Positions 19,108 through 62,206 of a stretch of DNA of 64,000 nucleotides are shown piece by piece; position 1 is the stretch's first letter, and each line of letters starts with the position of its first letter. The translations under genes were made by a program, and so were the position numbers. The DNA comes from Cliona cf. orientalis (Eukaryota; Porifera; Demospongiae; Clionaida; Clionaidae): the NCBI GenBank assembly GCA_963930775.1, contig OZ005689.1, forward strand, positions 36,524,851 through 36,588,850, given 5' to 3'. The notes beneath the pieces were generated by a model that was not told the origin of the DNA, did not search any database, and worked only from the letters and a program-made list of their open reading frames with translations.

Positions 19108-20224
19108 CTAATAATACAAAAAATATATATCTCAAGGAAGTATATTTCCATACCTTTTTTTTTTATTTGCTTCGCTACTGGGCTATTCTGAACGCATTCT
19201 CAGTAGAAACCGTCTCTATAGTAAGCTTTCAACTGCGATCACATTGCTGGGTCCAGGTCAGCCTACATGATTTAATATATACAGCTGAGTGGTATGAAGG
19301 AGGCTCTAAATCAGTTCATGAGTGATTATCTCACTAACTTTCGGCTGTCCGATTTCTATCCTGGACCAACCTGTCAAACTACACCGCCGTTTCTCTTCGC
19401 GATGGTTTCTGTCGATGTTCTCCTCTCTCTACTGTCAGCACCTCAGCACAACCTCATGGTGGCTACTACTACTGCGCGTGTGTGTGTACGTGCGCATGAT
19501 CGAGAGCGCTTGTCGATGACGACCCCGTACCAACCACGTTACCCTACGCGTCGTGGGTGTGTCAGCCATTCAACTTGGCCGAGTTACTTTCTTTGGATGC
19601 TACCAGGCCGGTTCACCTGTTTGCGTGAGGCTACTAGAAGAGTCTGGGAGCCCGACTGATCACCAACTCTCGTCCACTGAGCTCCGAAACAAGTACATAG
19701 TAATCAATAATTTATTATCATCACTGACATGCTTCACCACAGTGTCATACTATTAATTGTATCTTTATTATTCAAGTTGTGTGTGGGTGTAAGGAATGAT
19801 CAAAAATTTTTTATTGTAATAATTATGCTTACTATAACCATATGGGTAGGTAATTACCTAGTCATCAGGTAGGGGCGAGGGTGCCTCACAATATTATTGT
19901 ATACTTTATTAAAAATTTAATTTGTTCCGTAAAATCCTATTGCCATATTAACATTATCCAGGAGATGAGAAGTTACAGCAAGGTAAAAAGGCTCATGAGT
20001 GTCATTCTGTCTGTGTTCATTAATATGTGTCAGTTCAAATTGTGCTGTTAATTTTTTTTTCTATCCATAGTGACAACTTGAGGAATATAAATTATCATGT
20101 AGCTATCTGCTGGTGGAGATTTGAAAATAATTATATGACCAAGAGTAGCTAGCTCAACGGTTCAGTAGATGGGACCTAGCTATCACTGGCTGTGACTCAA
20201 GAGTGGTAGCTAGCTACTACAAAA

Positions 20225-46064: not shown

Positions 46065-46409
46065 CCTAATAAATTACAAAAAAACATCTCATGGAAGTTT
46101 ATTTCCATACCTTTTTTTATTTGCTTCGCTACTGGGCTATTCTGAACGCATTCTCAGTAGAAACCTTTTCTAGAGTTAGCTTTCAACTGCTATCACATTG
46201 CTGGTTCCAGGTCAGCCTACATGATTATATACAGCGGTATGAAGGAGGCTCTGAATCAGTTTATGAGTGCTTGCCTCACTAACTTTCGACTGTCCGACTT
46301 CTATCCCGGAAAGATCTGTCAAACTACACCGCCGTTTCTCTTCGCGATCATCTCTGTCGATGTTCTCCTCTCTCTACTGTCAGCACCTCAGCACAGCCTC
46401 ATGGTGGCT

Positions 46410-46417
46410 ATCTACGT
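46410..46417. repeat. Left target-site duplication of the 15.3-kb element
   Basis: ATCTACGT, repeated at 61674-61681 directly outside the other TIR. If the terminal T/A is counted as part of the element, the duplication would be TCTACG (6 bp). Confidence 0.85.
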
Positions 46418-46764
46418 ATGGAATACCATTTGTTTCAATACTTTCATAATATTTTTCCGCGTCATTTATGCGCGTTAATAATTTCCAACGCGCTATATTT
46501 TATTATTTACGCGCGCAAACTTGCATCAAAGCGCCATAACTTCAGTTTATACGCGAGAATATCTCCTCCGCAACGCTTCTTTTGTTCACCCGCCTACTTA
46601 TCTGTAACGCGGGACATTCTGTGCCCAAGCGCCACCAATGCGCGCTAACTGGCGTCAAGACCACGCCCCCGTTTTGCTCGGAGCGCGAGTACTGCGCATG
46701 CATCGCTTGGCAAACCACACCCTCTCCGCGTAATATTTTATCTTCTCTACTTCGCGCCCGAATA
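46418..46764 (+). repeat. Left 347-bp terminal inverted repeat
   Basis: Begins ATGGAATACCATTTGTTTC and ends TTCGCGCCCGAATA. Comparison base by base with the right TIR shows one difference, CATGCATCGC here and CATGCGTCGC there. It is rich in ACGCGCG and GCGC words (about 46465-46530, 46640-46710), which could be binding sites. Confidence 0.95.
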
Positions 46765-46808
46765 ATTATTACTCTCGCAATAATAACGACGTGATGCACG
46801 CGCATGCG

Positions 46809-46817
46809 TATAAAAAA
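46809..46817 (+). promoter_or_regulatory. TATA box of the SAM-HECT gene
   Basis: TATAAAAAA stands 54 bp before the ATG at 46863 and 45 bp inside the left TIR. The spacing leaves room for a start site about 30 bp downstream and a short leader, so the gene is driven from the element end. Confidence 0.6.
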
Positions 46818-46862
46818 CCGCATCTACACGTGGTTCTTCCTCTGCTGCGCTACATCTACGCA

Positions 46863-49800
46863 ATGGCTTCTAGATCTCAGTTGGAACAGGCTCTGCAAAC
46901 CGCTGGTTTGACCAGTTTGATCGACAAATTCCGCGTTGAAAAGGTAGGCCATAATTTCTTTGTATAAAGCATGTGAACACAGCTATGGAGCTTATTTTGT
47001 GTCAAAAATCATGGATTTGATTTTTAGAGTGAAATACAATGTGATCAGGCAATATCAACTTCAAATTTGATATTCAATTTGATTTTCTGTTCGATTTTCA
47101 ATTTATGATCTTCAATTTGATTTTTCATTTGATTTTCTGTTCAATTTTCGCTTTGACTTTCGATTGTTCACATTCCATTGTTCTATAACCCAGATCAGGT
47201 TCCTATGCTCATTTTCATGAGTGTAATGCTGTCTCTCAACAATAATTTACTTGCCTGGCGACCTTTATTAGTTTTTATTAGCAAGAATTAACCACTGCTG
47301 TGAGGTTCCTATCATTCGACTTGAGAGCAATATTTCACTTCGGTTTGTGCTGTATTGATTGTAATAAAGGTAACGATGCAAGTTAAACGTAATTATTGTT
47401 GAGAGAGGATTGCACTTTAATGAAAATGACCATATAGAATAATGGAATATGAAACGATTGAAAAGCAAGCAAAAATTGAACAGAGAATCAAGTGAAACTC
47501 AAATTGAAGATCACATTGTGAAAATCAAATTGAAAATCGAATGGAAAATCAAATTGAAAATCAAATTGAAAATCAAATCGAAAATCGAATTGAAAATCAA
47601 ATCGAAAATCAAATTGAAAATCAAATTGAAAATCGAATGAAAAGTCAAAATTTAAACTACGAACAAACTGAAAACTTTGTTTCACAGTTGATATTGCCCG
47701 ATCACATTATATTTCACATTCTAAATCAAAATTCTGATTTTTGACACAAAATAAGCTCCATACACAGCTACTCTAGTTCATAATAAAAAAAAAACTTTAG
47801 GTTACTGTAGAGGTAATCCCTCTGATGAACGACGAAGATTTGAAGAAACTAGGGGTTACTCATCTTGGTGATCGAGTAATTCTAAGGAACATTTGCAAGA
47901 ACTTGCAACGTAAGCTAGGGATTGTTACTTTTGCCTGTCATGCCCACCTATGGCTTTAAATCACGCCCATTTGGCGTTAAGGTACCATTTAATTGCGTGG
48001 GCGTGAGCGTCAGGAATGGCTAATTCAATTAGCGAATCGTGAAGGGGCGTGGCCGAAGAGGCCATACGAGTGCTTTTGGTCGAAGGTGGGCGTGTCCAGA
48101 ATCGGCCAGGGATGATTATGCACGTGTAATTAGCGACCGGAAGTGGCCCCTGAAGAAAAGGCCGGTAATTGAGCAAGATCAAAGCATTCTTGCTTAACTA
48201 TTAACCGCAACGACTTATTACACACTCATACCTGCCAACCTGCGGATAGTCTTGTGCTTGAAATTTGTATAAAATGTGCTTGATTTGGGGCATTTTTGCT
48301 TGATAATGCTGCTAGCTTCTCAAAAATGTATTAGCATATATGGGCCAGGTTCTCACAAAAAATGAGGGATTTAGTGATTTTTGTGAGGGATGGGTACCAT
48401 TTTTGCTTGAAATCAAGCAGAAAGCTGGATGGTTGGTAGGTATGCACACTAAGTAGTTACAACCTAAGATAAAAGAATATATGAGTGTGTAATGTAATGT
48501 AATAAATGTAATGTAATGTAATGTAATGTAATGTAATGTAAATAATGCATTCGAAGCACAGGAAAAGGTATTGTGCAATAATTTTTATATCAGCATGTAG
48601 AGTGGATCAAAAATAATAATTGAATCGTCTCAGATTTTTGATTTTCACTTTCAGTTTTGAAATACGAGTTGTAGTAGTTTCTGACCACTAAAGCATGCAG
48701 GAAATGACTTCTATCCAGATGGTGCAATGGTTAAGCTCAGTGTCTGCCAACCAGTGTCAAATGCGTGCACTGGTTCGAATCCCACCCGGGACCAATTTTT
48801 TTCCATCTTTTTTTTTCACTGCCAGTGATGCTGGGAAGGCAGTCTACATACACAAATAACATTCCATGGGTGATGCTCCTTATGTTGGATCTAGACTGGG
48901 GGATGATTACATATACAAGCCCCAAGTCACTCTCAAATACACAGATCTCAGATGTCACGTTGTACATTAGTATTATGACGTTATAGTGGGTATAGTAATC
49001 AATGTTTACAAGTTGAGATTTTCTGCCTTACCACATACCTGACCTATTGTAGCAGACATATATGATAGGAACTGGTGACATACCGCTAACAAATTACTTG
49101 TTGATAAAATTCTTTTATCTTAGGTTGTGGTTTAGCTTGAAAAAAAGAAAAAATTTAATATAAATAATTAATGTTTGAGACTCAGGGAAGCAGTTCATGA
49201 CAAGATTTTTATATGAGCACGCAGAATGGATCGCACCTGCAAATTTAAATGAAGCGGAATTTTGATTTACGCCTTAGAATTAAAGTTACGGCCCTTTGAA
49301 GTTTCCTAGGAAGCCATACATTTGCAATGTTTGCCCATAAAAAAATTACGGGCACGCAGAAAAAAAAATAACGGGCGCGCGGGGTACGTTGACGACCCTT
49401 TACCAAACATTGTGCATATGGCTATTTTGATACCTGCTTGCATTACTATGCATGCAGTTCGACTATGTGGTGGTTTTCGGATGTTTTTTTCTGCTTAGTG
49501 TGTGGTCCCCTTGAAAAAAAAAAAAAAAAAAAAGAAAAAAAAGAAAAAGCTAATTAGGCCTAATTAAGCATGTGGGCGTGTTCCTGGCACTGTGTGGAGT
49601 GTGTGCGTGTGCGTTAATGCAGGTTTTATTGCTTCCGATTGGGCGTGGCTTCACAGGCCAGTGCTTGGACATCGGCGCCTGGGACTTGGCCCCGGCGATA
49701 GGTGGGCGTGTCCCGGATGCGGTGGTGACCTTTGAACCCGTCCAGGAGGCTTTGGGGGCGTGGTAGGAGGTCAAAGGTGAGGCCATGTCTGTTAATGAGG

Positions 49801-52800
49801 CACTGTACGGCGGTGCGATCGAGGGGCCTGTACGGCTGGACGGAAGCTGACGATGCATTAGACCCTGATTATTAAGCTGATACCAAACCTCAAAGTTCAT
49901 TAGTTTTACTCTTGTATGTGTTGTGTATGCACTATGATTATGGCTGTCCCTTTTAGGAGAAAGTGTGGTTAATGAAGAGATTAAGAACATTTTCCCATCA
50001 ACATCTGCTCCACCTACTTCACAAAGTCTCGGCCACCAGGATGTACTTGCTCGTGCTGACAGATTGCTTACCCAGCTACGCAAGAAACCAGCCTCTCTCT
50101 CTGAAAAGCATGTTCGTCGTCGACGCAAGTATACTGGAAAGAGTCGAGAATATCAAAGAAATCTGGTTGTGATCGACTATCCTGGAAAGAAGCTTCCTGC
50201 TGTGCAAGTTTTGCACGATTATGACAAAGTGTATGAGGGCAGTTTTTCTTTCACTAGTGCTATGAGTGAGGATTCTATCCGTGAAGAGATAGCCCAGCTA
50301 ATGCAAGAGAAAACAAGCGACTTGTATGATTTTACTTCAGTTGAACCTGATGATTTTGAGTTTGTCAAATGTGTTAACAAACGCGTAAGGGTTCCGGATG
50401 GAAAAGCTTGTTATGATGGTGATGGGATTCGTGATCTTTATCGTTGTGCTAACATATATGTAAGACTGACTAAATCATTCAGCAAATATGAGGTAAGAAT
50501 GCATTTCATTTACACAAAAACCAGCATTCCCAAACATGTAACAATCCAGCTCCAATATATACTTACTTTACATTCGATGGAGATGAGAGGTCACCTTATG
50601 TGTTATTGTGTGTTAACCATTTAGAGGAAATTTTGTGTTGCCCAATAGTCAAGGATCCCCTATCAGTATACACGAGGGCCCCAAGATTCAGCCTAATCTG
50701 CTCGCACATTGTATGTATGTTCACATTCGGTCACGCACATTTTATGTCATTAACATGTACTTGTTGGCAGGCTACACTAATAGGATGCAATCTTTGTACA
50801 CTAATAATAATTCTTACCAGGAAATTCCCGCCAAAAAATGTCCATAGACTCTATTTTCATACAAAAACCCTGCATATTGTATCATAGCATGATTGTCATA
50901 ATCAGAACATACCTGATGTATTTTAGATATTCACCCTTCCTCTAACTACAACCTCTAAACTTGTTATCTGGACACTTTCACTTTATTATATGAAGACCAA
51001 TCCACAGTGATCCGGAAATTGTTGTGCACACTTGGTTACTGATCAGTGTTCTCCCCAGCATACTTAAGGGATAGGGGGCCCCCATCCCTTAGTGCTGATT
51101 TGTCTTTGAAGTTGGATTGGGGTGGAGCCAAAATCTTTGATGTGGACACTAGCTCCACCCAAAATAATGCCTTCCCCTATGCCTTCAATTTTGGCTGGGG
51201 AGAACACTGCTGATATCAGCAAGAATTAAATGTTGGGGTCTGTGTGTATGCTGTGTTGTTTTAAGACTTATTCATACACGTTGGAATGTACATGTAAAAG
51301 GACTGGAGGGCTCGGTATGCAAACAGAGGGCCTTAGGCTAATAATATTATTATAGACAGAGCACTGTTTGAAACGAGTAATTACTATGCCATCATACACA
51401 GGTACGTGAGTCAAATACCACTTCTTCACATGATGGCAATTCTGATGCTGGCAGCAGTGCTTCTGGACAGCCTGGGGTTTCTGACAATGATGATGTTGTT
51501 CGCAGCACTGTGGATAATGCTTCATCACATGATTACAACCTTGATTTGGATTTAGATGTCTCCGATCTTCCTGTTGTTGACCTAACCACAAACGGGAAGA
51601 GTGATTCAGGAGTTGTCAAGAGTAGTGATCGCTCATGTGGACAATCTTCTTACGAGTATGTAAAAATATACAGTAATTACCTCTTGTACTCTATTACTAA
51701 TAATTATTGGACACTGTGCTTGCTTATGTGAAAAAGGCTTGGCCTTAGTGCTATTCAAACTAGAGCTCCCTAGAGCACAAAACCTCGGTGTGTTATATAC
51801 ATGGTATTACCCTATATGAAATCTTATGCATGTTACATACATGTTGACCTGAACATGCCTGTAACATGAATGTTCTACTCATGTGTAGTGCATATCAAGA
51901 CAACATGCATGTTACAGTAGGGGCAAAAGGTATGTTGTATGCATGTCAAATAAGGTAGCATGCACAGTGCATGTAGCAGGAGTAACAGGCATATAACAGG
52001 CAAGTGACATGCATGTTTCATGTGAGTGACATGACATAATAGATGCATGTTAAAAAGTATAATATGTACTAAGTATTATCATATAGGTATTTGTTCTGAA
52101 TCTCTGACGTTTAAATGTATGCTGATCCCATCCCACCTCGATCTATATGCATACATGTGTACATGTATGTGTACACAGATGAGGAAATCGATTTTTAACT
52201 TCTTAATCGCCTGTTTTAATGCTTAATTATTTACGCATGTTACATGCATGGAAGATGTCCCATTCCATGCATGTTACATGAAACATGTATGCTACATGCA
52301 TGTAGATACAAATGGAACCTGCATATAACATGCGCCAAAATTAGTGTATGTCATCACCTGAAATGTAACATGCATATTAAATGCACGAGATTTTGCATAG
52401 ATGTTTCAGTGGTGCGTACAGAAAAGGGAATAAAGGGCTGGGGACGAGGCTAAGGGCTAAGGAAGAGGCTAATGTTATACTCGCACAGCAGTAGGTTCAA
52501 CAGCTCACAGCTTCTTCAAAACCCTGGTGCGAAACTTAAGTACACTAAGCAGTATTACATGTCCAATATTATCGCTCACTTGAGTCTAAGCACTGCATGA
52601 TAGCTGGGGGAAAGACAAGGTAGAATCATGCAGCAAATGATACCAAACTGGCGAACAAAGCGTTTTTGATAAAATTCACACAAATAATATGTTTGAATCT
52701 TATACCACCGCACTTTGGACTCACAAACAAGGTTTGTAGTAATAACGGACAGATGGACACACAGAACAACCGCTGTAATCCTCAGACACATGCGACGACT

Positions 52801-55713
52801 GTTAAAAATATTGATCACTATAATATTATTATACTGAGGTGGGTGCGGAGGGATTTGAACACACCCTGCTGTACTCTATATGCATATAATTCCGGCTGTA
52901 CCATCACATTGATTGCAGTGATTGTGTGCATGCATGCACAGAGACATGGATATGTTATTGCAACATATAAAAGTTATCTGACAGTAATTAGGGTGCATGA
53001 GGTGCATGGTCGAGTGCACCCCAATTTCTGTCATGATTATTTTGTTGGTATTTCACTCTGTTCATTATTGGCCTACTTTATGATGACCCAACCCCTTCCC
53101 ATAGCTGGCTAATTGCCTTAAAAATTTTGGTTGCTAGGCAACTACCCACAAACATGCATACATGTACACACAATGTCATACATACCCTACACACATACAC
53201 ACCCATACACACAAGTCAACACTGATTATCTGCTCTGCAATACAAAGGTGCAGTGTGAGTAGGGTGTGCATGCAAGGGTGCTGTTATTTTAATTCTGTAG
53301 TATCTTACCATAAATTTAATATTGTGCAGAACCTTCATTGATCTATTATCTGAAGATGAGCCCGATGACGACCTTCTCATTCAATCAAGCATTGAAGCCA
53401 GTATTCTTGATGGGTAAGTCTATTATAATTATTATCAATTGGAGCTCTTATTGTTAAATTTATCACAGGATCAACAGAGTTGAACCACCTGCCAATGTAA
53501 ACATTGATCAGGTATTGAGGGACCACGCACACACTGCAGCCAAAATTCAAGAAATTCCAGAAGATCGCCAAAGGATAACAATCCGCCGTCGTCTGATTTG
53601 GGAGGATACCAAAAGAGCACTCGAACGACCATCATTCAATCCTTATGTAGGACTTCACATAGACTTTGTAGGAGAGGGTGCTCAAGATGCAGGTGGTCCA
53701 CTACGTGAATTTTTCCACTTTCTCTGGAGTGCAATGTCGAAGGATGGCAGTATCTTCACTGGACAAGAGGATAAACGCCTACTCACTCACAATGTCATGT
53801 CACTACAGAAAGGATACTATTCTCTTGTTGGAAGGTGCATTAGCTTAGCATTGGTGTATGGCGGTACTGGTCCTCATTTTTTCTCTGAATCAGTCACCTC
53901 ATATATATTCAATGAAGATAATGCAGCTATCGAAGAAATTTCGGATGATATGTTGCGACGCAAAATTCGTAAGGTAAGATACATACCATGTTCGAGGAAA
54001 TTATTTTCACTGGAAAGAATTTCGCCAACCCCAGCTAATTTCATATTGCAGAAAGTTTTGATGAAATAAAATTTGGCCAAATTGGTAAAGGTTACCATGT
54101 CCTCTGTAATACTACATGTAGTGGTGATGAAATCATCTGTGTGGGGCAAGCCTTCGTGAAAGTCACCTATACTTTGTTAGCTGGTAGCCACAAGCTAGTG
54201 GCCACAAGCAGGGTCCAATTAACTCTGAGTGTATACAATATATGTATAGCCAGGGGACAAACCTCCATGCAAACCCGACCTACTATATTATTATTATATC
54301 ATTTTGGTTTCTGACTAGCCTAGCTTCGTGGAATCTGTACACAACCTTAGCATGACATACATATAATACATGCACATAATAGTATAAGATATTGGTTTAC
54401 ATGGCAGCTATGCAGTACACATGACGCTGTATTTATCCCAAATACAGTACCAATACCTGTTCATGAGTTCAATCAAGTGCAGGGTTAGTTAGTAGTCCAA
54501 TACTCCAAGCATACAGGTGAGGCTGGGCATAATAGTCACAGCCATGTGCTGTACATGCTGGAGTCATGCATGCTGTGTACGTAGTCAATGTCTGTTAATA
54601 TCTTCTTTACCATGCATGCTATTTACCTTCTAGTACCCTTTCACAGACAAATTGAGCTCGATAGCATGTTCTAGCTGGGTGAGCCCCTTGCCTTGCCTTG
54701 CCTACCTGTACTGTAAAATTAATTATAAAGATCATGTGTTTTACCTCTCTTCTACCTCTCTTGTGATGCTATATTAATTGAACATACTCCACAGATAAGA
54801 GAATGTAGCAGTGATAATGAACTTAAGCAGCTTCTCGGTTCCGAAGACTACAACTTCCGATACGATGCTGGGGTATGCATGCCATCAACAGCAGTTTCAC
54901 TTAAACAAAAGGAAGATATCGCACTAGCATTGGCCAAACATTACCTGCTATATTCCACCATGGCAGAACTTGAGCAGTTGAAGCAGGGTTTGAAGGAACT
55001 GGGGATACTGAATTTGCTACATGCTCATTCAAAAGTGCTTAAGCCTTTATTTCTTGCCAGTGGAAAGCCTCAACTGAGTCCTTCAACTGTTATCAACATG
55101 TTTAAAGTGATATGGTCACCAGTTGGCTCAAACCAACGGGACAAAGAAGAGGCAGTAATACTTGGATGGACAGAATATATACACGGCCTTAAAGGTAGCA
55201 ACCGATTACCTTGCATGCATGATATATAATAACGATATCCCAGATAGGAACCCACCTACTTCGGGGTCAATAATAATTATTATTAGTGGTTTTCTTACAA
55301 ACTTGTATTTTAGGAATGAGCAGTCTGAGATTGTCCTGTACTTACGATTTTGATCTTGCCCGATCATAATTCATGATTTTTATTGCACCATAAAAGTACT
55401 TTCTTTATAATAATTGCTAATTTTTTTCCACATAGATGGAAGATTAATACACAATGAGGATCCCGATGGAGAGGACTTTTTCATTGACTTAGGAAGTGTT
55501 TTAATTTTCACAACCGGAGCAGATCATGTACCTCCAGTGGGATTTGGTGTCAGTTGTAGTCCAGAAATTAGGTTTGAAAAGGAAAATCGACTTCCACATG
55601 CTTCAACTTGTGGCCCAACTCTTTACCTTCCATTACGTATGGATGATCCTGACAAATTTAGCCAGCAGATGGACTTTGCAATATGTAATGCTCATGGTTA
55701 TGGAAAGCCCTGA
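46863..55713 (+). CDS. SAM-domain HECT E3 ubiquitin ligase
   Basis: Predicted exons 46863-46943, 47801-47909, 49957-50492, 51402-51655, 53330-53413, 53469-53973, 54795-55194 and 55436-55713 all have GT/AG borders and matching phases, giving 748 residues. Exons 1-2 encode a SAM domain (LEQALQTAGLTSLIDKF, EDLKKLGVTHLGDRVIL). Exon 3 is basic, then an unassigned conserved region (NLVVIDYPGKK...). Exon 4 is acidic and Ser-rich. Exon 5 has a UIM-like DDDLLIQSSIEAS. Exons 6-8 are a HECT domain: VGEGAQDAGGPLREFFHFLW in the N lobe and LIFTTGADHVPPVGFG then LPHASTCGPTLYLPL in the C lobe, with the thioester cysteine at about residue 715 (nt 55609-55611). It transfers ubiquitin from an E2 to a substrate. 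It is cargo of the 15.3-kb element and resembles multicopy G2E3-like HECT genes. Confidence 0.9.
46984..47762. mobile_element. MITE in intron 1 of the HECT gene, minisatellite core
   Basis: Ends TATGGAGCTTATTTTGTGTC and GACACAAAATAAGCTCCATA are perfect inverted complements with TA termini. The right half holds about ten units of a 12-bp repeat (AAAATCAAATTG variants, 47515-47640), and the left half holds inverted relatives (TTCAATTTGATTTTC, 47075-47160), so the whole core can pair. Related ends lie near 16319 and 44200. Confidence 0.75.
48489..48543. repeat. TAATG microsatellite
   Basis: About nine TAATG units with one interruption (TAATAAATG), in intron 2 of the HECT gene. Frames crossing it are artefacts. 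Confidence 0.85.
48717..48800 (+). mobile_element. tRNA-derived SINE head
   Basis: A box TGGTGCAATGGTTAAG (48720-48735) and B box GGTTCGAATCCC (48772-48783) at tRNA-like spacing, followed by a T run at 48794. The T stem does not pair (only two of five base pairs) and no acceptor stem forms, so this is not a functional tRNA gene. It lies in intron 2 of the HECT gene. Confidence 0.6.
51656..53041. other. Intron 4 of the HECT gene: ATG/CAT-rich repeats and MITE debris
   Basis: No coding exon is needed here for phase. It contains a CTAGAGCTCCCTAGAGCAC start resembling the Helitron-like end (51761), a 600-bp stretch (about 51790-52430) saturated with palindromic CATGCATG and TGTTACATG words, a solo GGGGACGAGGCTA MITE end (52440) and a hairpin element (52976-53036). 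Confidence 0.55.
53042..53152. mobile_element. X-box-bearing MITE, third copy
   Basis: Arms TTGTTGGTATTTC and CAACTACCCACAA; GTTGCTAGGCAAC is at 53130-53142. It lies in intron 4 of the HECT gene with the same upstream hairpin neighbour as at 27530-27709. Confidence 0.7.
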
Positions 55714-56050
55714 CTGTATGAAATTAAGCTTGTGGGTCATACTGTTAACAATCTTGCACTTTACCATTATCTTATTCCATTATTCTATATTTAATCATAA
55801 TAACAATTAATATTAATTTTATATTCATTGCTGGCCATGCACTCTCCCTGAAGTTTTCTGCATGACAATTTTCACTTACTGTTCTTCTTGACTCGTTGTT
55901 CTTTCATTATGCCATGAATCATGATGATTATTAATAGTTACTGTAATAATGCTGCTTGCTGAAATATAACATAATAATTATTGTAATGACTTGCATATTC
56001 ATTGCATATTCTGAATGCATGATTCAGACAGTATAATGAATACAATTATA

Positions 56051-56730
56051 TGTGACCGTCCACGAGAAAACCATGCATAATGCGCTGGATATCAATCTGA
56101 GATACAGGCCAATTTAGTCATCTATGGTGATAACTATCGATTTTCACTTTTTCGTATGGATCGATAGAGGAATCATTCCTCTACACAAAAATCTGCGTCG
56201 TAGCTTCTAGAACGCTATACTTACTGAGTTATGGCTCGAAGAAGTCGGCCGTGTAGCTAACATTGGCCGTCCATGATACGGAGCCGTTGCCATAGTTGCA
56301 GGTAGGCAAGCACGGCAGCTGCACAGAAAAAAACTCTCCAGTCACTTCTTTCTTCGAATTTTTGTACTAACGATCTTTAGATACGCTTGTCTTCTTGTTC
56401 TTTTCCATCGAAACGTTGGCTGCTACTCTCGTTCGAGCGTTTTGGCAGCCAGCTAGCTCATTGACTTTGTGGGCGGGGCCACGTATTTACCATAAACGGC
56501 GAGTATACGGACTTCCGCGTGCAACGTACGTAGCAATGTTCATTGCAATTTTTTGCAATACTCGAGTACGGGCGATCCGGGTACATTTTTGCTCATATCT
56601 CCATGACTACACGGGCTAGAGACTTCAAATTTGCTGGAGCAATAGTTCAAAGGTTGTAGTTGGTAATGGTGGCCTTAACTCAAAAATTTTTTTCAGCGCA
56701 TTATGCATGGTTTTCTCGTAGACGGTCACA
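56051..56730. mobile_element. 680-bp TIR element between the convergent genes
   Basis: Ends TGTGACCGTCCACGAGAAAA and TTTTCTCGTAGACGGTCACA are TIRs that continue through CCATGCATAATGCGC. TA flanks both sides. It separates the 3' ends of the HECT and integrase genes and has no coding frame. Confidence 0.8.
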
Positions 56731-56848
56731 TATTATCACACACTCAAAGGGCAAAATATAGAAATAAATGACTGTTATGATGACACGATGCTGGATGCAT
56801 GCTATAATAATTCTTATATAATTATATAGACTAGCTATATAGTAAGTA

Positions 56849-56854
56849 TTTATT
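56849..56854 (-). terminator. Poly(A) signal of the integrase gene
   Basis: AATAAA on the minus strand (TTTATT on plus), about 50 bp past the stop codon of the integrase frame. Confidence 0.55.
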
Positions 56855-56903
56855 ATCTTGTGTGATGACAAATGGCACTAGACTAAGTAGCTATTATACT
56901 CAA

Positions 56904-59900
56904 CTAGGGCAGCATTGCAGACACAGTGTTCAGCACTGATAAGTAAATATCAAATCCCTGATAGTCACTATGTGCCAGTGGTGGATGATGTTCACGCAAG
57001 TAATCCATTTGTAGTTGTGTCAAACCAATGTTTGTTTCGGGAATTATCACTGATTCAAGGTTAAAAGGATTGACATACTCATCTTGGTCAACTCCATACT
57101 CTTCTGGTTGATCAATTACAGAAGAGCTTGCTATACATAGACCACGAGTCCAGAGCTGGGATGGCGTCAATCCATGCTCAGTCCGCAGAGGATGATTATT
57201 CCATCCTTCCATGAACCGATTAAGTTGCATGTTGATACGGGGAAGGTACACAAAGTGAAGACAGAATAGATGCTTGTCACAAATAGGATTCAAAAGGTTA
57301 CATGCTTCCATCTCGTAGAATAATGTATAGAAGGTGTGGCATACACAGCGAAATGTGTCGCGCCAAAGACGCTCTATTCTCTGGTTGTGAACACTAGCAC
57401 CAGATATATGACTAGCTCGCCCGGGTCCCCTACTCATTATCATAGCTCTAGCTACATCAATATTTTCTCCACCATGGTCTGACCTGACCCTTGAAGGCCA
57501 CCCATACTTCCTTGCAGCAACAGTAAACTGTCCAAGTACAGTTTGTGCTCGATTATTATCTGATGCATTGAGGTATACAATATGACGTGAATAGCCATCT
57601 ATTCCACCATGTATAACGATTCTCCATCGTACTAAGCAATGCAAGCCATCTATATGCCATAAGGCATTAGAAGATGCTACAGTATACTGTCGACGAGCTA
57701 TTGTTGTTGTAGCGCGTGACTGAACCATTCTTGGACTGACTCTCAACAATGACTCCCGAACTCTTCTTCTTGGTAAATGTATACCGTAGCTACGTAAGTA
57801 ACCCCACATCATTATTGTTCCACACCTTGGATATTGATTTACCAGTCTCTGCATGACGGCATCTACTTCACTGTCACTAATATTCGATGTACTCTGCAAG
57901 GTAATTCCCAATTCATGGCACCTACGCCATAGTGTGGTTCTTGAAATCATAAGAACATCAGCACATTGATCCCATGTGAGTCTCATTTCACGTAAGAATT
58001 CTAGCTGTTAAAACATAACATGTGGTACACTAATGTGATCAATAATGAATAATGAATAATGAAAATTTTGCTGGATCTTCAAAATAGCATGCGGGCGGTG
58101 ACGCTTAACAGTGAATTTAGTTTGTGTGGCCTAAAGTATTTACTCCCTTGAAGTTCCTAATTTTAACCTCTGTATAGTATAATATATTATATAGTGTACC
58201 TGTGCTACTTACCAACTCGATATTTACTACCTTCCTTGGGCGGCCATGAGGAGCTATCTCACTTTCTACAGCATCAAATCGAGATTCGATAGACTGCAAT
58301 TTAATTTCCCACTGCACTAGCAAAGAGCTAATACAGTGATTGAGCTCCCTATACATATCGTATTCTATGGAGGGCCTGGCAACACTTCCTGAAGATATGA
58401 AGTTGCATAAAGTTTGAGTACAACACTCCAGGTCAAAAACTATTCTATCAGCTGTTGCTATGTCGGTAGTGAGCTCATGGATCCGGCAATCGTTCAGTAC
58501 ACTGTGTACTGCTTCCAATAAACCACCAGCAATGGCCATTATTGTATAGCAGTTGTCCCTAAGATGAAAGAAAAATGAATTATATACGTATACATTACTA
58601 TAATACTGCCTTCTTTATCAAAACGTGCCCATTCATAAAATTAATTATCTTATGCAACAGTCTGATAAGCTTTTATAACACTACTTTTATGGAATGCAAA
58701 ATTTAAGGTCAGCATGCGTTAGGTATACAATAATAACAACACTCAGCTTACTACCGTAAGTGTCATATGCAGGAAAAGGCAGGGTACTTATAATAGAACT
58801 TTACAGTACAATAATATAAGAATTATACTGTACATTTTGTGTTGACCATCCTCCCTCTATTACACTAGTTTTGAAGTTATGGAAACATATCCCCTTTAAT
58901 AATATGGTTGGGTTATACATCGCGCTTCTGAATGCACTATAGTACACCCTCTGGTGTTGAATACTCAACGACATGTATCACTATCGAAGTGTTCTCCACA
59001 CTTCTTGCTTTGTACACCTAAGTGAAATTAGAACTCACTAAACGGACACCTGTCAAAGGCAGATATGCATATTATAAATTTATTATTATCATGAATAACT
59101 GAAAATTCTGAATATATATTGTATCTGGATCAATACAATCTCAACAGCTCACTGTGGCACTCCCATACTACAGTTTTTTATCAACATATTTACGTTTGCT
59201 TTATTGGTGATGGTTGCAGGGGCGGATCCAGAGGGGGTTAGATGGGCTCGAACGATCCCCCCTTTCTGACTAGCTGTCTGGTATTTAGCCTGTATAGTAG
59301 TCTAAAATCTAGGCTTCATAGAACCCCCCATGCCTTTAGCTAGCTACAGTACTAAAGCCTCTGTCTTTAGCTCACCTACTTGGACATTTCTTAGTGAATA
59401 TTTGGTTGATTTGAAGTCTTGGAGCGCATCACAAGACTTCGAACACGCAATCTAGCAAGAAATAGGCGTGGTCAACGAGCGAAGTGGCCTAAAAATTCGC
59501 TCGCGCTTCACGCACATACTGTTAAACTAAGAATCCCCCTCTGATAAATCCTGGATCCACCCCTGGGTTGTAACTTAAAGGGGGCCGTGACATAATAATA
59601 CATGTAATAACATTATGATTGAAATCATAAAACTGTACTTGTGACCATGCAACTACGAAATATATCTACGGGGAGGGGGGGGGGGGGAGGGGGGGAGTTA
59701 GTTAAATTAGCTACAAGCCAACCTACAGACCCTATCCCTAGGAAAGGCCAGTTCGAGAAACAAATTACTAAATTGATCATGAAGTGGCCTGACCATTGTC
59801 TAACTATGCATGCACAAAATCTCAGCCACGCCTCTTAGCCGACTATAGTTATGCTGCATGGAGATAGGGCCCAGAATATCGCTTGACAGTTTGAATGACC

Positions 59901-61274
59901 CCCAAGAAGTGCCTTGACCATTAGACTGCATTTTGACCCCGGTCGCAGCTCTGGACACGTTAGCTAGCGTCTACAGTGGAACCCCTCTAAAGCGGACACC
60001 ATTGGGACCAAAAATTTTGTCCGTTGTAGCGAGGTGTCCTTAGCTCAGGGTAGTAATGGGCGGTATTGGAAATAGTAGCTGACGGTATGTTGTGCAGAAA
60101 ATATTGCGGTATCACGGTATCCACGGTATGTGGAATATATATGGTAATGTATACGCTAAAATTTGATAATCAAGCATTAATGGCTACGACATCAGTACTT
60201 TTTGAATCTGATTATACAAATTTATTGGGCGATCTGTAGATTATACTCTCATTTATTACGGATGGAAGAAAATTATGATAGCAAATACGGTATCACGGTA
60301 TTTGTATCGTTTAACGGTTAATAATCAATACCTCGGTATCACGGTATGGACGGTATATTGCCCATTACTAGCTCAGGGGTTAGTGGTTGACCACGCCCCT
60401 CCTACAATCACGGCCAGCTATGATAAAGCACTACTGTGGACAACGATGAAGACCGTATTGATGAGAGATCTGTCAACTGACAGCTTCTAAGCAAGAATAT
60501 GAGACATATTTAGGCTTTACTGTAGTTACTGGTCGCTGAAACCGACTGATTTTAATGGTGGGTGTGGCCTAACTGTCCGTTATGCGAGGTTGTTCACTAT
60601 TGCGCAGGCTCGAACGGGACCAAAATAAGTGTCCGTTATACGGAATAGCGGGGTGTCCGCTGTTGAGGGGGTTTGAATGTATTGAAGTCTATGGAAATAC
60701 AATCCGGACATTCAGAATTGTCCGCTATATCGCAGGTGTCCACCGTTGAGGGGTGTCCGCTAAGCGGGGTTCCACTGTATATATTATATGGGAGTGATTC
60801 CCACCCCTCCCCCCTTGTGACATAAATTAATGAAGTATCTATATTATTCTTAACACGTTAATTTGATACATTTATAGTACATTATAGCTACTGATCGAAT
60901 ACCCTGATACCAAGGGGGAGGGGGACAGTGCAGCCTGAAAAGTGCCACGCCTCCTTCCCGGCAATCCAAACCCAAAAAAGTTATTGTAGATAGCTACATG
61001 CAACCCTTATTTAATATACCTGAAGCTTCTCCATACAAGTACATTATACTAACTAGCCTAGCTAGCTACAAAATTTGATTAGTAATCACAGGATAACCGA
61101 GTATCTGAACTAGCTAGTCACCACCGCCTAAAGCCTTAAGTAGCAGGCCACTGAATATTCTGTGGTATCCCCACCCACAACTCCCCCCTCCCACATGCAG
61201 GCCTAAGAAATTTAACTAATATTGGCCCGTATATACTATGGATTAATCTATGTTTACACTTACCTCAGACTCAT
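56904..61274 (-). CDS. rve-type DDE integrase/transposase
   Basis: Minus-strand exons 58213-58558 and 56904-58004 join in phase (TTG/GTAAGT donor, TTTTAACAG acceptor). From the ATG at 58539 the product is 475 residues. A further 11-nt coding end of a first exon, 61264-61274 (ATGAGTCTGAG/GTAAGT), fits the acceptor at 58558 in frame and would give 485. N-terminal region helical, then an HTH (TWDQCADVLMISRTTLWRRC), then the retroviral-integrase-like core: WHIDGLH (D about 228), VRSDHGGEN (D about 285) and NQRIERLWRD (E about 320), a DD34E arrangement, then FMEGWNNHPLRTEHGLTPSQLW. It should cut and join the element ends. All three acidic residues are present, so it may be active. This integrase type is known in animals and fungi, but I cannot name its transposon superfamily. 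Confidence 0.85.
59217..59565. mobile_element. 349-bp CAGGGGCGGATCC element, 5-bp duplication
   Basis: It starts CAGGGGCGGATCCAGAG and ends CTGGATCCACCCCTG; GGTTG is repeated on both sides (59212-59216, 59566-59570). Near the right end is CGCTCGCGCTTCACGC, like the GCGCGC tracts of relatives at 23817 and 35808. Confidence 0.85.
59974..60777. mobile_element. 804-bp Tc1/mariner-like MITE
   Basis: Ends CAGTGGAACCCCTCTAAAGC and GCTAAGCGGGGTTCCACTG are near-perfect TIRs flanked by TA. GTCCGTTRT-type words are repeated inside. It is interrupted by a hAT-like MITE; without it the length is about 476 bp. Confidence 0.85.
60051..60370. mobile_element. 320-bp hAT-like MITE nested in a mariner MITE
   Basis: Ends TAGTAATGGGC and GCCCATTACTA, with perfect 8-bp duplications GCTCAGGG (60043-60050, 60371-60378). 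ACGGTAT words are repeated inside both arms. Confidence 0.9.
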
Positions 61275-61326
61275 AAACAACAATAATAATATTATTCAGA
61301 TTCAGATAATTAGAAACCACTACTAC

Positions 61327-61673
61327 TATTCGGGCGCGAAGTAGAGAAGATAAAATATTACGCGGAGAGGGTGTGGTTTGCCAAGCGACGCATGCGCAGT
61401 ACTCGCGCTCCGAGCAAAACGGGGGCGTGGTCTTGACGCCAGTTAGCGCGCATTGGTGGCGCTTGGGCACAGAATGTCCCGCGTTACAGATAAGTAGGCG
61501 GGTGAACAAAAGAAGCGTTGCGGAGGAGATATTCTCGCGTATAAACTGAAGTTATGGCGCTTTGATGCAAGTTTGCGCGCGTAAATAATAAAATATAGCG
61601 CGTTGGAAATTATTAACGCGCATAAATGACGCGGAAAAATATTATGAAAGTATTGAAACAAATGGTATTCCAT
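61327..61673 (-). repeat. Right 347-bp terminal inverted repeat
   Basis: Inverse of the left TIR with one difference seen. Its inner border (TATTCGGGCGCGAA) lies 53 bp from the putative first exon of the integrase gene, mirroring the left side. Confidence 0.95.
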
Positions 61674-61759
61674 ATCTACGTGTGTGCATTCGTGCGCATG
61701 ATCGATCGTGCTGGTCGATGACGACCCCGTACCAACCACGTTCCCCGTTGAAGAAGAAC

Positions 61760-62206
61760 GAATCCCGTTATGTACCGAGAAACCCGCGCGTCAAATGACG
61801 TTCTATTGATCACGTGTGGCGCGCGCCTCCCTCACTTAGAAAATTTCCAGAGTATAAGGGAAAAAAAAAAAGAAATTGAATGAATAGAGCGAGGATCGAA
61901 CTGGGGTACATGAATCCATACACCAGAGCCCTAACCACTGCACCACCGTGAACGCCGCTGCCAGGTGCTCTTTTGTCACGACTTTAAAGACAATAGTAGT
62001 ACTAACCCTTGTGTGTCAAACCATAGATATTATTACGTAAACGTAGTCTATAATATCTATGGTCAAACCCTACCCTAAACCAAAACCCTACCTACCCTTA
62101 GCTAGCCGTTCATATAATACTATGCAATTTAGCCCAGCCCCCTACGGGGGCTGGGGCTGGGCCGTGCGCCTATGGCGCGCGGGTTTCTCAGTACATAACG
62201 GAATTC
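61760..62206. mobile_element. TIR element with embedded tRNA-like sequence
   Basis: The left arm GAATCCCGTTATGTACCGAG and the right arm, inverted, GAATTCCGTTATGTACTGAG continue through AAACCCGCGCG. It is absent from block A. It contains the tRNA-like segment at 61891-61945 and a palindrome at about 62023-62066 (ACCATAGATATTATTACG and its inverse). Confidence 0.7.
61886..61950 (-). mobile_element. tRNA-derived SINE head, minus strand
   Basis: On the minus strand: A box TGGTGCAGTGGTTAGGGC (61945-61928) and B box AGTTCGATCCTC (61902-61891). The T stem is not paired, so it is not a tRNA gene. It resembles the 48717 sequence in its A box. Confidence 0.55.

Follow-up and report, generated by a model that had tools for sequence, protein, structure and literature searches.

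A predicted IS3EU/GingerRoot transposon in a sponge genome that pairs a DDE transposase gene with a gene for a HECT ubiquitin ligase

Polintons have long terminal inverted repeats (TIRs) and an rve integrase, plus genes for polymerase B, ATPase, protease and capsid. In the available portion of the description by Kojima and Bao (2023, PMC10045372), Polintons are given a 6-bp target-site duplication (TSD), and IS3EU elements have TA..TA ends, usually 6-bp TSDs, no HHCC motif and the first catalytic aspartate 100–300 residues into the transposase. Fungal IS3EU elements with TET/JBP are characterized, in the excerpted text of Kojima (2025, PMC12730594), by TAYGG..CCRTA termini, 6-bp TSDs and TIRs of more than 30 bp, and their transposase and alpha-kinase genes are oppositely oriented with TET/JBP between them. 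The Styx element of Zymoseptoria has four coding sequences and a transposase traced to IS3EU (PMC10853768, partial text). For Ginger1, the accessible sections of PMC2836005 describe OTU or Ulp1 proteases fused to the transposase, a 4-bp CCGG/CCGT TSD and TGT ends, and the authors propose there that the ubiquitin pathway is involved in transposition. Here we characterize an element of 15,258 bp (positions 46417–61674) in a 64,000-nucleotide stretch of the sponge Cliona cf. orientalis (contig OZ005689.1, positions 36,524,851–36,588,850), hereafter the window. Judged from its sequence and from relatives in the same animal's assembly (217 Mb, 149 contigs), it is very probably a cut-and-paste transposon of the IS3EU/GingerRoot superfamily, belonging to a lineage that often carries convergent genes for a DDE transposase and a HECT E3 ubiquitin ligase.

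The borders were mapped within the window by inverted-repeat detection and by the flanking duplication:
46411–46416: left TSD, TCTACG
46417–46764, plus strand: left TIR, beginning TATGGAATACC
61327–61674, minus strand: right TIR, terminating GGTATTCCATA
61675–61680: right TSD, TCTACG

The two TIR arms are 348 nt each with a single mismatch (position 46702), and the element termini are TATGG..CCATA. A first-pass annotation, made from the letters of the window, had recognized the element, its inverted repeats and the one mismatch; its repeat length (347 bp) and its borders (46418 and 61673) have to be corrected by one base, at each end in the case of the borders. The duplication that it had seen is likewise real, and the 8-bp repeat ATCTACGT is better read as the 6-bp TSD plus the T and A of the TA..TA ends, given that these ends recur with perfect 6-bp TSDs in three other elements. 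The flanks, joined with one TSD copy, match continuous element-free paralogous sequence elsewhere in the source genome, in alignments that cross the junction and have small indels exactly there:
C1:36491647, empty-site paralogue, 95% identity
C6:84053, empty-site paralogue, 89% identity
C1:36544013 (within the window, near 19163), empty-site paralogue, 88% identity

The sequence that hosts the element is a member of a low-copy repeat family, seen in the window at 46117–46416 and about 19163–19544, with several copies near this end of C1, on C6 and on C3. A dispersed short repeat (61760–62206, inverted ends 61760–61793/62173–62206, about 30 other genome matches) adjoins the right boundary.

The transposase gene lies on the minus strand and is convergent with the HECT gene. 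Its model is an open frame of 475 amino acids (aa) with two exons and a GT-AG intron (predicted splicing):
58213–58539, minus strand: transposase exon 1, start codon (splice model)
56904–58004, minus strand: transposase exon 2, DDE core rva_4 and stop (splice model, Pfam, alignment)
57648–57650, 57477–57479 and 57372–57374, minus strand: codons of the DDE triad D228, D285 and E320 (alignment)

Pfam assigns the protein to rva_4 (PF24764, 3.3e-81), with rve (PF00665, 3.2e-7) slightly under the Pfam cut-off, and lists no zinc-finger family for it. The first two acidic residues are separated by 56 residues and the second and third by 34, so that the DD34E integrase with all its acidic residues stands as first annotated. 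Across 59 aligned transposases neither the first Asp nor the Glu varies, and at least 90% keep the second Asp. An AlphaFold model of a 367-aa transposase frame (pLDDT 84) matches IstA, retroviral intasomes and TnsB, with a best E-value of 2.3e-6; a sequence search of the PDB using the transposase alignment gave no match.

The plus strand gene is modelled with eight exons and GT-AG introns (predicted splicing) as an open frame of 748 aa:
46809–46817, plus strand: TATA-like sequence TATAAAAAA, after the left TIR and ahead of the HECT start codon, a candidate promoter identified by eye
46863–46943, plus strand: HECT exon 1, start codon, SAM (splice model, Pfam)
47801–47909, plus strand: HECT exon 2, SAM (splice model, Pfam)
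49957–50492, plus strand: HECT exon 3, middle region (splice model)
51402–51655, plus strand: HECT exon 4, S- and D-rich (splice model)
53330–53413, plus strand: HECT exon 5, UIM-like by eye (splice model)
53469–53973, plus strand: HECT exon 6, HECT N-lobe (splice model, alignment)
54795–55194, plus strand: HECT exon 7, middle part of HECT (splice model, alignment)
55436–55713, plus strand: HECT exon 8, C-lobe, Cys715 codon at 55609–55611, stop (splice model, Pfam, alignment)

Pfam finds HECT (PF00632, 9.3e-13) and SAM_1 (2.2e-8) in this protein, and Cys715 aligns with the LPTSHTC motif of E6AP as a cysteine of the catalytic type. With a HECT domain and this C-lobe cysteine the second gene is a predicted HECT E3 ubiquitin ligase. 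Two convergent multi-exon genes had been proposed by the first-pass annotation and are borne out by open splice models, GT-AG introns and Pfam domains; of its SAM–UIM-like–HECT architecture, SAM and HECT are retained, and Pfam lists no UIM family for the 748-aa protein, which leaves the UIM-like stretch of exon 5 as a reading by eye. The single-exon HECT of a related locus (L025, 39 aligned relatives) was modelled with a pLDDT of 92.5, and in a structure comparison this model, which is of a related copy and not of the window's protein, matches the HECT domains of Nedd4, UBR5, HUWE1 and E6AP. A homologue search with the entire 748-aa protein returned none, probably owing to word selection or introns; a single-exon HECT alignment (A2) as query yielded 176 relatives in the protein collection. 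Intron 1 of the HECT gene holds arrays of a 12-bp A/T-rich unit (TGAAAATCAAAT) with inverted arms (46984–47762), probably a nested repeat. Between the 3′ ends of the two genes there is a further insertion:
56045–56736: repeat resembling a miniature inverted-repeat transposable element (MITE), 692 bp, with 43-bp inverted ends

This MITE-like family has at least about 40 near-full-length copies (93–100% identity), scored among 744 first-look genome candidates.

Three further elements in the same genome are bounded in the same way, each with TATGG..CCATA termini and both genes in convergent orientation:
C12:792649–800941, 8.3 kb, TSD CCATTG
C4:526442–532435, 6.0 kb, TSD GCCGGT
C5:4265879–4273971, 8.1 kb, TSD CGCCCT

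Together with the window element, four of four bounded elements therefore have these termini and perfect 6-bp TSDs. The first unbroken inverted stretch is 286 bp in C12 (perfect, one flank base counted), 194 bp in C4 (192 matching, flank bases counted) and 211 bp in C5 (perfect), and in all three more blocks follow inwards. The C5 copy and a copy on C3 are 99.8% identical over 3.6 kb. The identity stops precisely at the left TATGG, outside which the two copies have different flanks, and this is sound sequence evidence for the movement of a HECT-bearing element. The first-pass annotation had looked to independent copies with different flanks and the same two genes for support of a DNA transposon that carries the ligase as a true component. 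Such copies are found at the family level: the convergent pair recurs inside TIR-bounded elements whose flanks are unrelated and whose TIRs differ in sequence.

How regularly the two genes occur together was assessed from both sides. The transposase has 113 genome matches, the next best after the window's own being 49% identical. The best 30 of these, each taken with 1.5 kb on both sides, were scanned with two HECT profiles (alignment A3 and the window's HECT) in all frames of at least 35 aa; five of the matched frames (L008, L009, L018, L025 and L031) are themselves members of A3. A HECT profile match was obtained at 19 of the 29 non-window loci, always on the opposite strand and downstream of the transposase, within about 1.5 kb. 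For 15 convergent frames chosen by eye, HECT was the top Pfam family in every case and lay above the cut-off in 12 (L009, L006 and L007 scored 22.7, 19.6 and 13.8 bits against a cut-off of 23.9).

In the opposite direction, the window's HECT protein has 36 genome matches, eight of which are its own exons; the other 28 cluster into 16 loci. For 12 of these 16 a transposase match is no more than 10 kb away; in 10,000 random placements the mean was 0.43 and the highest count 4 (random positions that fell on C1 were restricted to 16.5–37 Mb, and 80 of the 113 transposase matches were used, omitting the window's own and mostly second-exon matches beside an included one). By strand reading nine of the 12 are convergent, one is on the same strand and two are divergent. 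With L018, a HECT of a second type, as query, 26 matches were obtained at about 20 loci, several of them near-identical copies and the C4 locus being common to both HECT sets; 15 of these loci are within 5 kb of a transposase match and all 15 are convergent. Since the pair recurs in many relatives within this genome, the HECT ligase seems to belong regularly to the element and not to be there by accident.

The two genes also diverge in parallel. Distances between HECT C-lobes and between transposases at 13 loci correlate with r = 0.55, a value reached in one of 5000 label permutations, and the active-site Cys column is kept in 13 of 13 C-lobes. Five single-exon HECT frames, all in the same convergent slot, are 28–52% identical to each other, and third codon positions are the most divergent in 10 of their 10 pairs. 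Co-divergence and codon pattern fit a long joint maintenance of HECT and transposase.

Several results weigh against a transposon lineage of which the ligase is a regular part, or narrow it. At the sensitivity of the search used, no second nucleotide copy of the exact TIR was found in the genome. For the first-pass annotation a single copy would have counted against the proposal; the exact TIR is indeed confined to the window, and the family is not. No outer TIRs were found at C1:18645001–18663000, a locus with both genes, and three of the 12 transposase-adjoining loci of the window's HECT type are not convergent. In some cases the HECT frame is interrupted (split at L019 and L021, internal stops at C9:4548427). 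In the HECT profile scan ten of the 29 loci had no HECT within about 1.5 kb:
L004, L012, L014, L015, L016, L017, L022, L023, L026 and L029: transposase loci without HECT nearby

At two of these, L022 and L026, a convergent HECT match lies farther off, at 3–7 kb. At L016 (C18:3093090–3099800) HECT is absent over 4.4 kb downstream, the only place examined for its subfamily, and an alternative convergent frame of 150 aa (C18:3097400–3097849) has no significant Pfam family. The subfamily formed by L015, L016, L017, L023 and probably L029 seems to be without HECT in the stretches seen. With HECT at 19 of the 29 loci and none nearby at ten, HECT is therefore frequent, not universal, beside these transposases. 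As aligned, the empty-site paralogues show the absence of the element and not the 6-bp duplication. Scans of viral contigs and of genome contigs, the latter giving only three short contigs, showed the pair in no other species. Finally, the class assignment is a feature-by-feature comparison with published texts.

Searches elsewhere returned 5074 transposase relatives; the named ones among the 120 listed are from Amphimedon queenslandica only, and sequence scans found no relatives in viral contigs. The three short contigs (L075, L076 and L077) encode IS3EU-like transposases and belong to a Cycloclasticus symbiont bin of a poecilosclerid sponge; they are likely host contamination of the bin, and HECT had no match on them. 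On one of the three a gypsy-like frame was seen by eye beside the transposase. Within the Cliona assembly, 81 of the 113 transposase matches form 74 clusters, of which 44 are on C1, all at 16.8–36.6 Mb. C1 measures 37.5 Mb compared with at most 14.8 Mb for the other contigs listed, and a transposon-rich arm, a special chromosome or an assembly join are candidate readings of this concentration. Facing pairs of related transposases about 10 kb apart occur at C19:2571938/2582400 and C11:173020/183347 and are nested or palindromic; at the C19 pair HECT lies downstream of only one member.

An arrangement of this kind could also arise without any bond between the two genes. The HECT gene and the integrase gene might belong to separate mobile elements that by chance are neighbours between unrelated inverted repeats; in favour of this, the window element exceeds its three bounded relatives in length and contains a nested repeat. 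This explanation has a probability close to negligible, as it is contradicted by four elements in which both genes share one TIR pair and a perfect TSD, the shortest being 6.0 kb. A Polinton/Maverick that shrank after losing its polymerase and capsid genes would account for the long TIRs, the rve integrase and the 6-bp TSD common to Polintons (PMC10045372, partial text). We consider it very improbable: of the 16 frames of at least 100 aa overlapping the element, 13 were scanned with Pfam, as were both spliced proteins, and none matched a polymerase, ATPase, protease or capsid family above cut-off; the other three frames lie mostly within the TIRs, and remnants in short exons are possible. Moreover, the integrase is rva_4, the ends are those given for IS3EU in the accessible part of PMC12730594, and related elements of 6–8 kb leave scant room for such genes; the earlier distinction from Polintons is thus upheld.

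Alternatively, one or a few chance captures of a host HECT gene may have left the transposon with a passenger that does nothing for it. The superfamily can carry other genes, as the fungal IS3EU elements with TET/JBP show (PMC12730594, available text), and the loci that lack a nearby HECT, together with the broken frames, fit such a history. Against it stand the shared convergent slot of five HECTs as different as those compared above, the parallel divergence of HECT and transposase, the excess of third-position differences over first and second positions in every pair and the uniformly kept active-site cysteine, and we regard mere capture as improbable. A ligase that targets its own transposase to limit its amount would amount to self-control of copy number. 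Both genes reside in one element and co-diverge, and near-identical groups among the compared loci have two to four members (lower bounds), as such control would allow; co-divergence is explained by shared descent alone, and we rate self-control as unlikely, if less so than capture.

Returning to the cut-and-paste IS3EU/GingerRoot transposon with a HECT gene, its movement can be sketched from what is known of the family. The transposase would bind and pair the two TIRs, cleave at the TA ends and excise the element; the ends would then be joined to target strands 6 bp apart, and gap repair would create the TSD. The likeliest reading of the ligase, at about even odds, is that it serves transposition. 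It would do so by ubiquitinating either the transposase or the transpososome, for dose control or disassembly, or else a host protein that acts in silencing or repair; the data favour neither target. An animal IS3EU lineage whose transposition requires HECT as a conserved second core gene, a counterpart of the fungal IS3EU alpha-kinase, is a tentative proposal whose chances we put somewhat short of even. If it is true, this would be the first ubiquitin ligase known to us as a regular partner of a cut-and-paste transposase. A family with a ligase in a recurrent convergent slot next to an integrase-like transposase makes a role of the ubiquitin pathway in transposition testable, an idea raised in the part of PMC2836005 available on the strength of transposons with OTU or Ulp1, enzymes that strip off ubiquitin or SUMO. 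Counts of HECT-domain genes in animal genomes of this kind may also include some that are owned by transposons.

The first-pass annotation had suspected an undescribed or poorly described type of transposon, and this part does not hold: TA..TA ends, a 6-bp TSD, TAYGG..CCRTA termini and an IS3-like rve domain without HHCC correspond to published IS3EU/GingerRoot elements. Judged by ends, TSD length and transposase type, the element fits this superfamily, and its novelty lies in the HECT gene, not in the transposon type. The word HECT is absent from the available texts of PMC10045372, PMC12730594, PMC10853768 and PMC2836005. In the literature collection searched, no paper contains HECT and IS3EU, or HECT, GingerRoot and transposon, and among the papers listed by wider searches none was on the subject; an earlier mention in Repbase or in the GingerRoot paper is possible.

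Set beside the known systems, the element shares long TIRs, an rve integrase and the 6-bp TSD with Polinton/Maverick elements. With Styx it has an IS3EU-derived transposase in common and differs in the HECT gene, of which the Styx text, as far as available, makes no mention (PMC10853768). Ginger1 resembles it in that an integrase-like transposase is tied to a domain of the ubiquitin/SUMO pathway; however, the TSD TCTACG, the TATGG ends and the lack of a listed zinc-finger family set the window element apart from Ginger1 as defined in the accessible text (PMC2836005). The likeness to IS3EU/GingerRoot extends to the TA..TA ends, the 6-bp TSD, the rve DDE transposase without an HHCC finger match and the position of D228 within the 100–300 residues given in the portion of PMC10045372 at hand, whereas the HECT gene and the 348-bp TIRs distinguish the window element. 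The fungal TET-bearing IS3EU elements, as described in the excerpted source (PMC12730594), have the 6-bp TSD, the end motif and the opposite orientation of the transposase gene and a second enzyme gene in common with it; there the second gene encodes an alpha-kinase, whereas in the sponge element it encodes a predicted HECT ubiquitin ligase.

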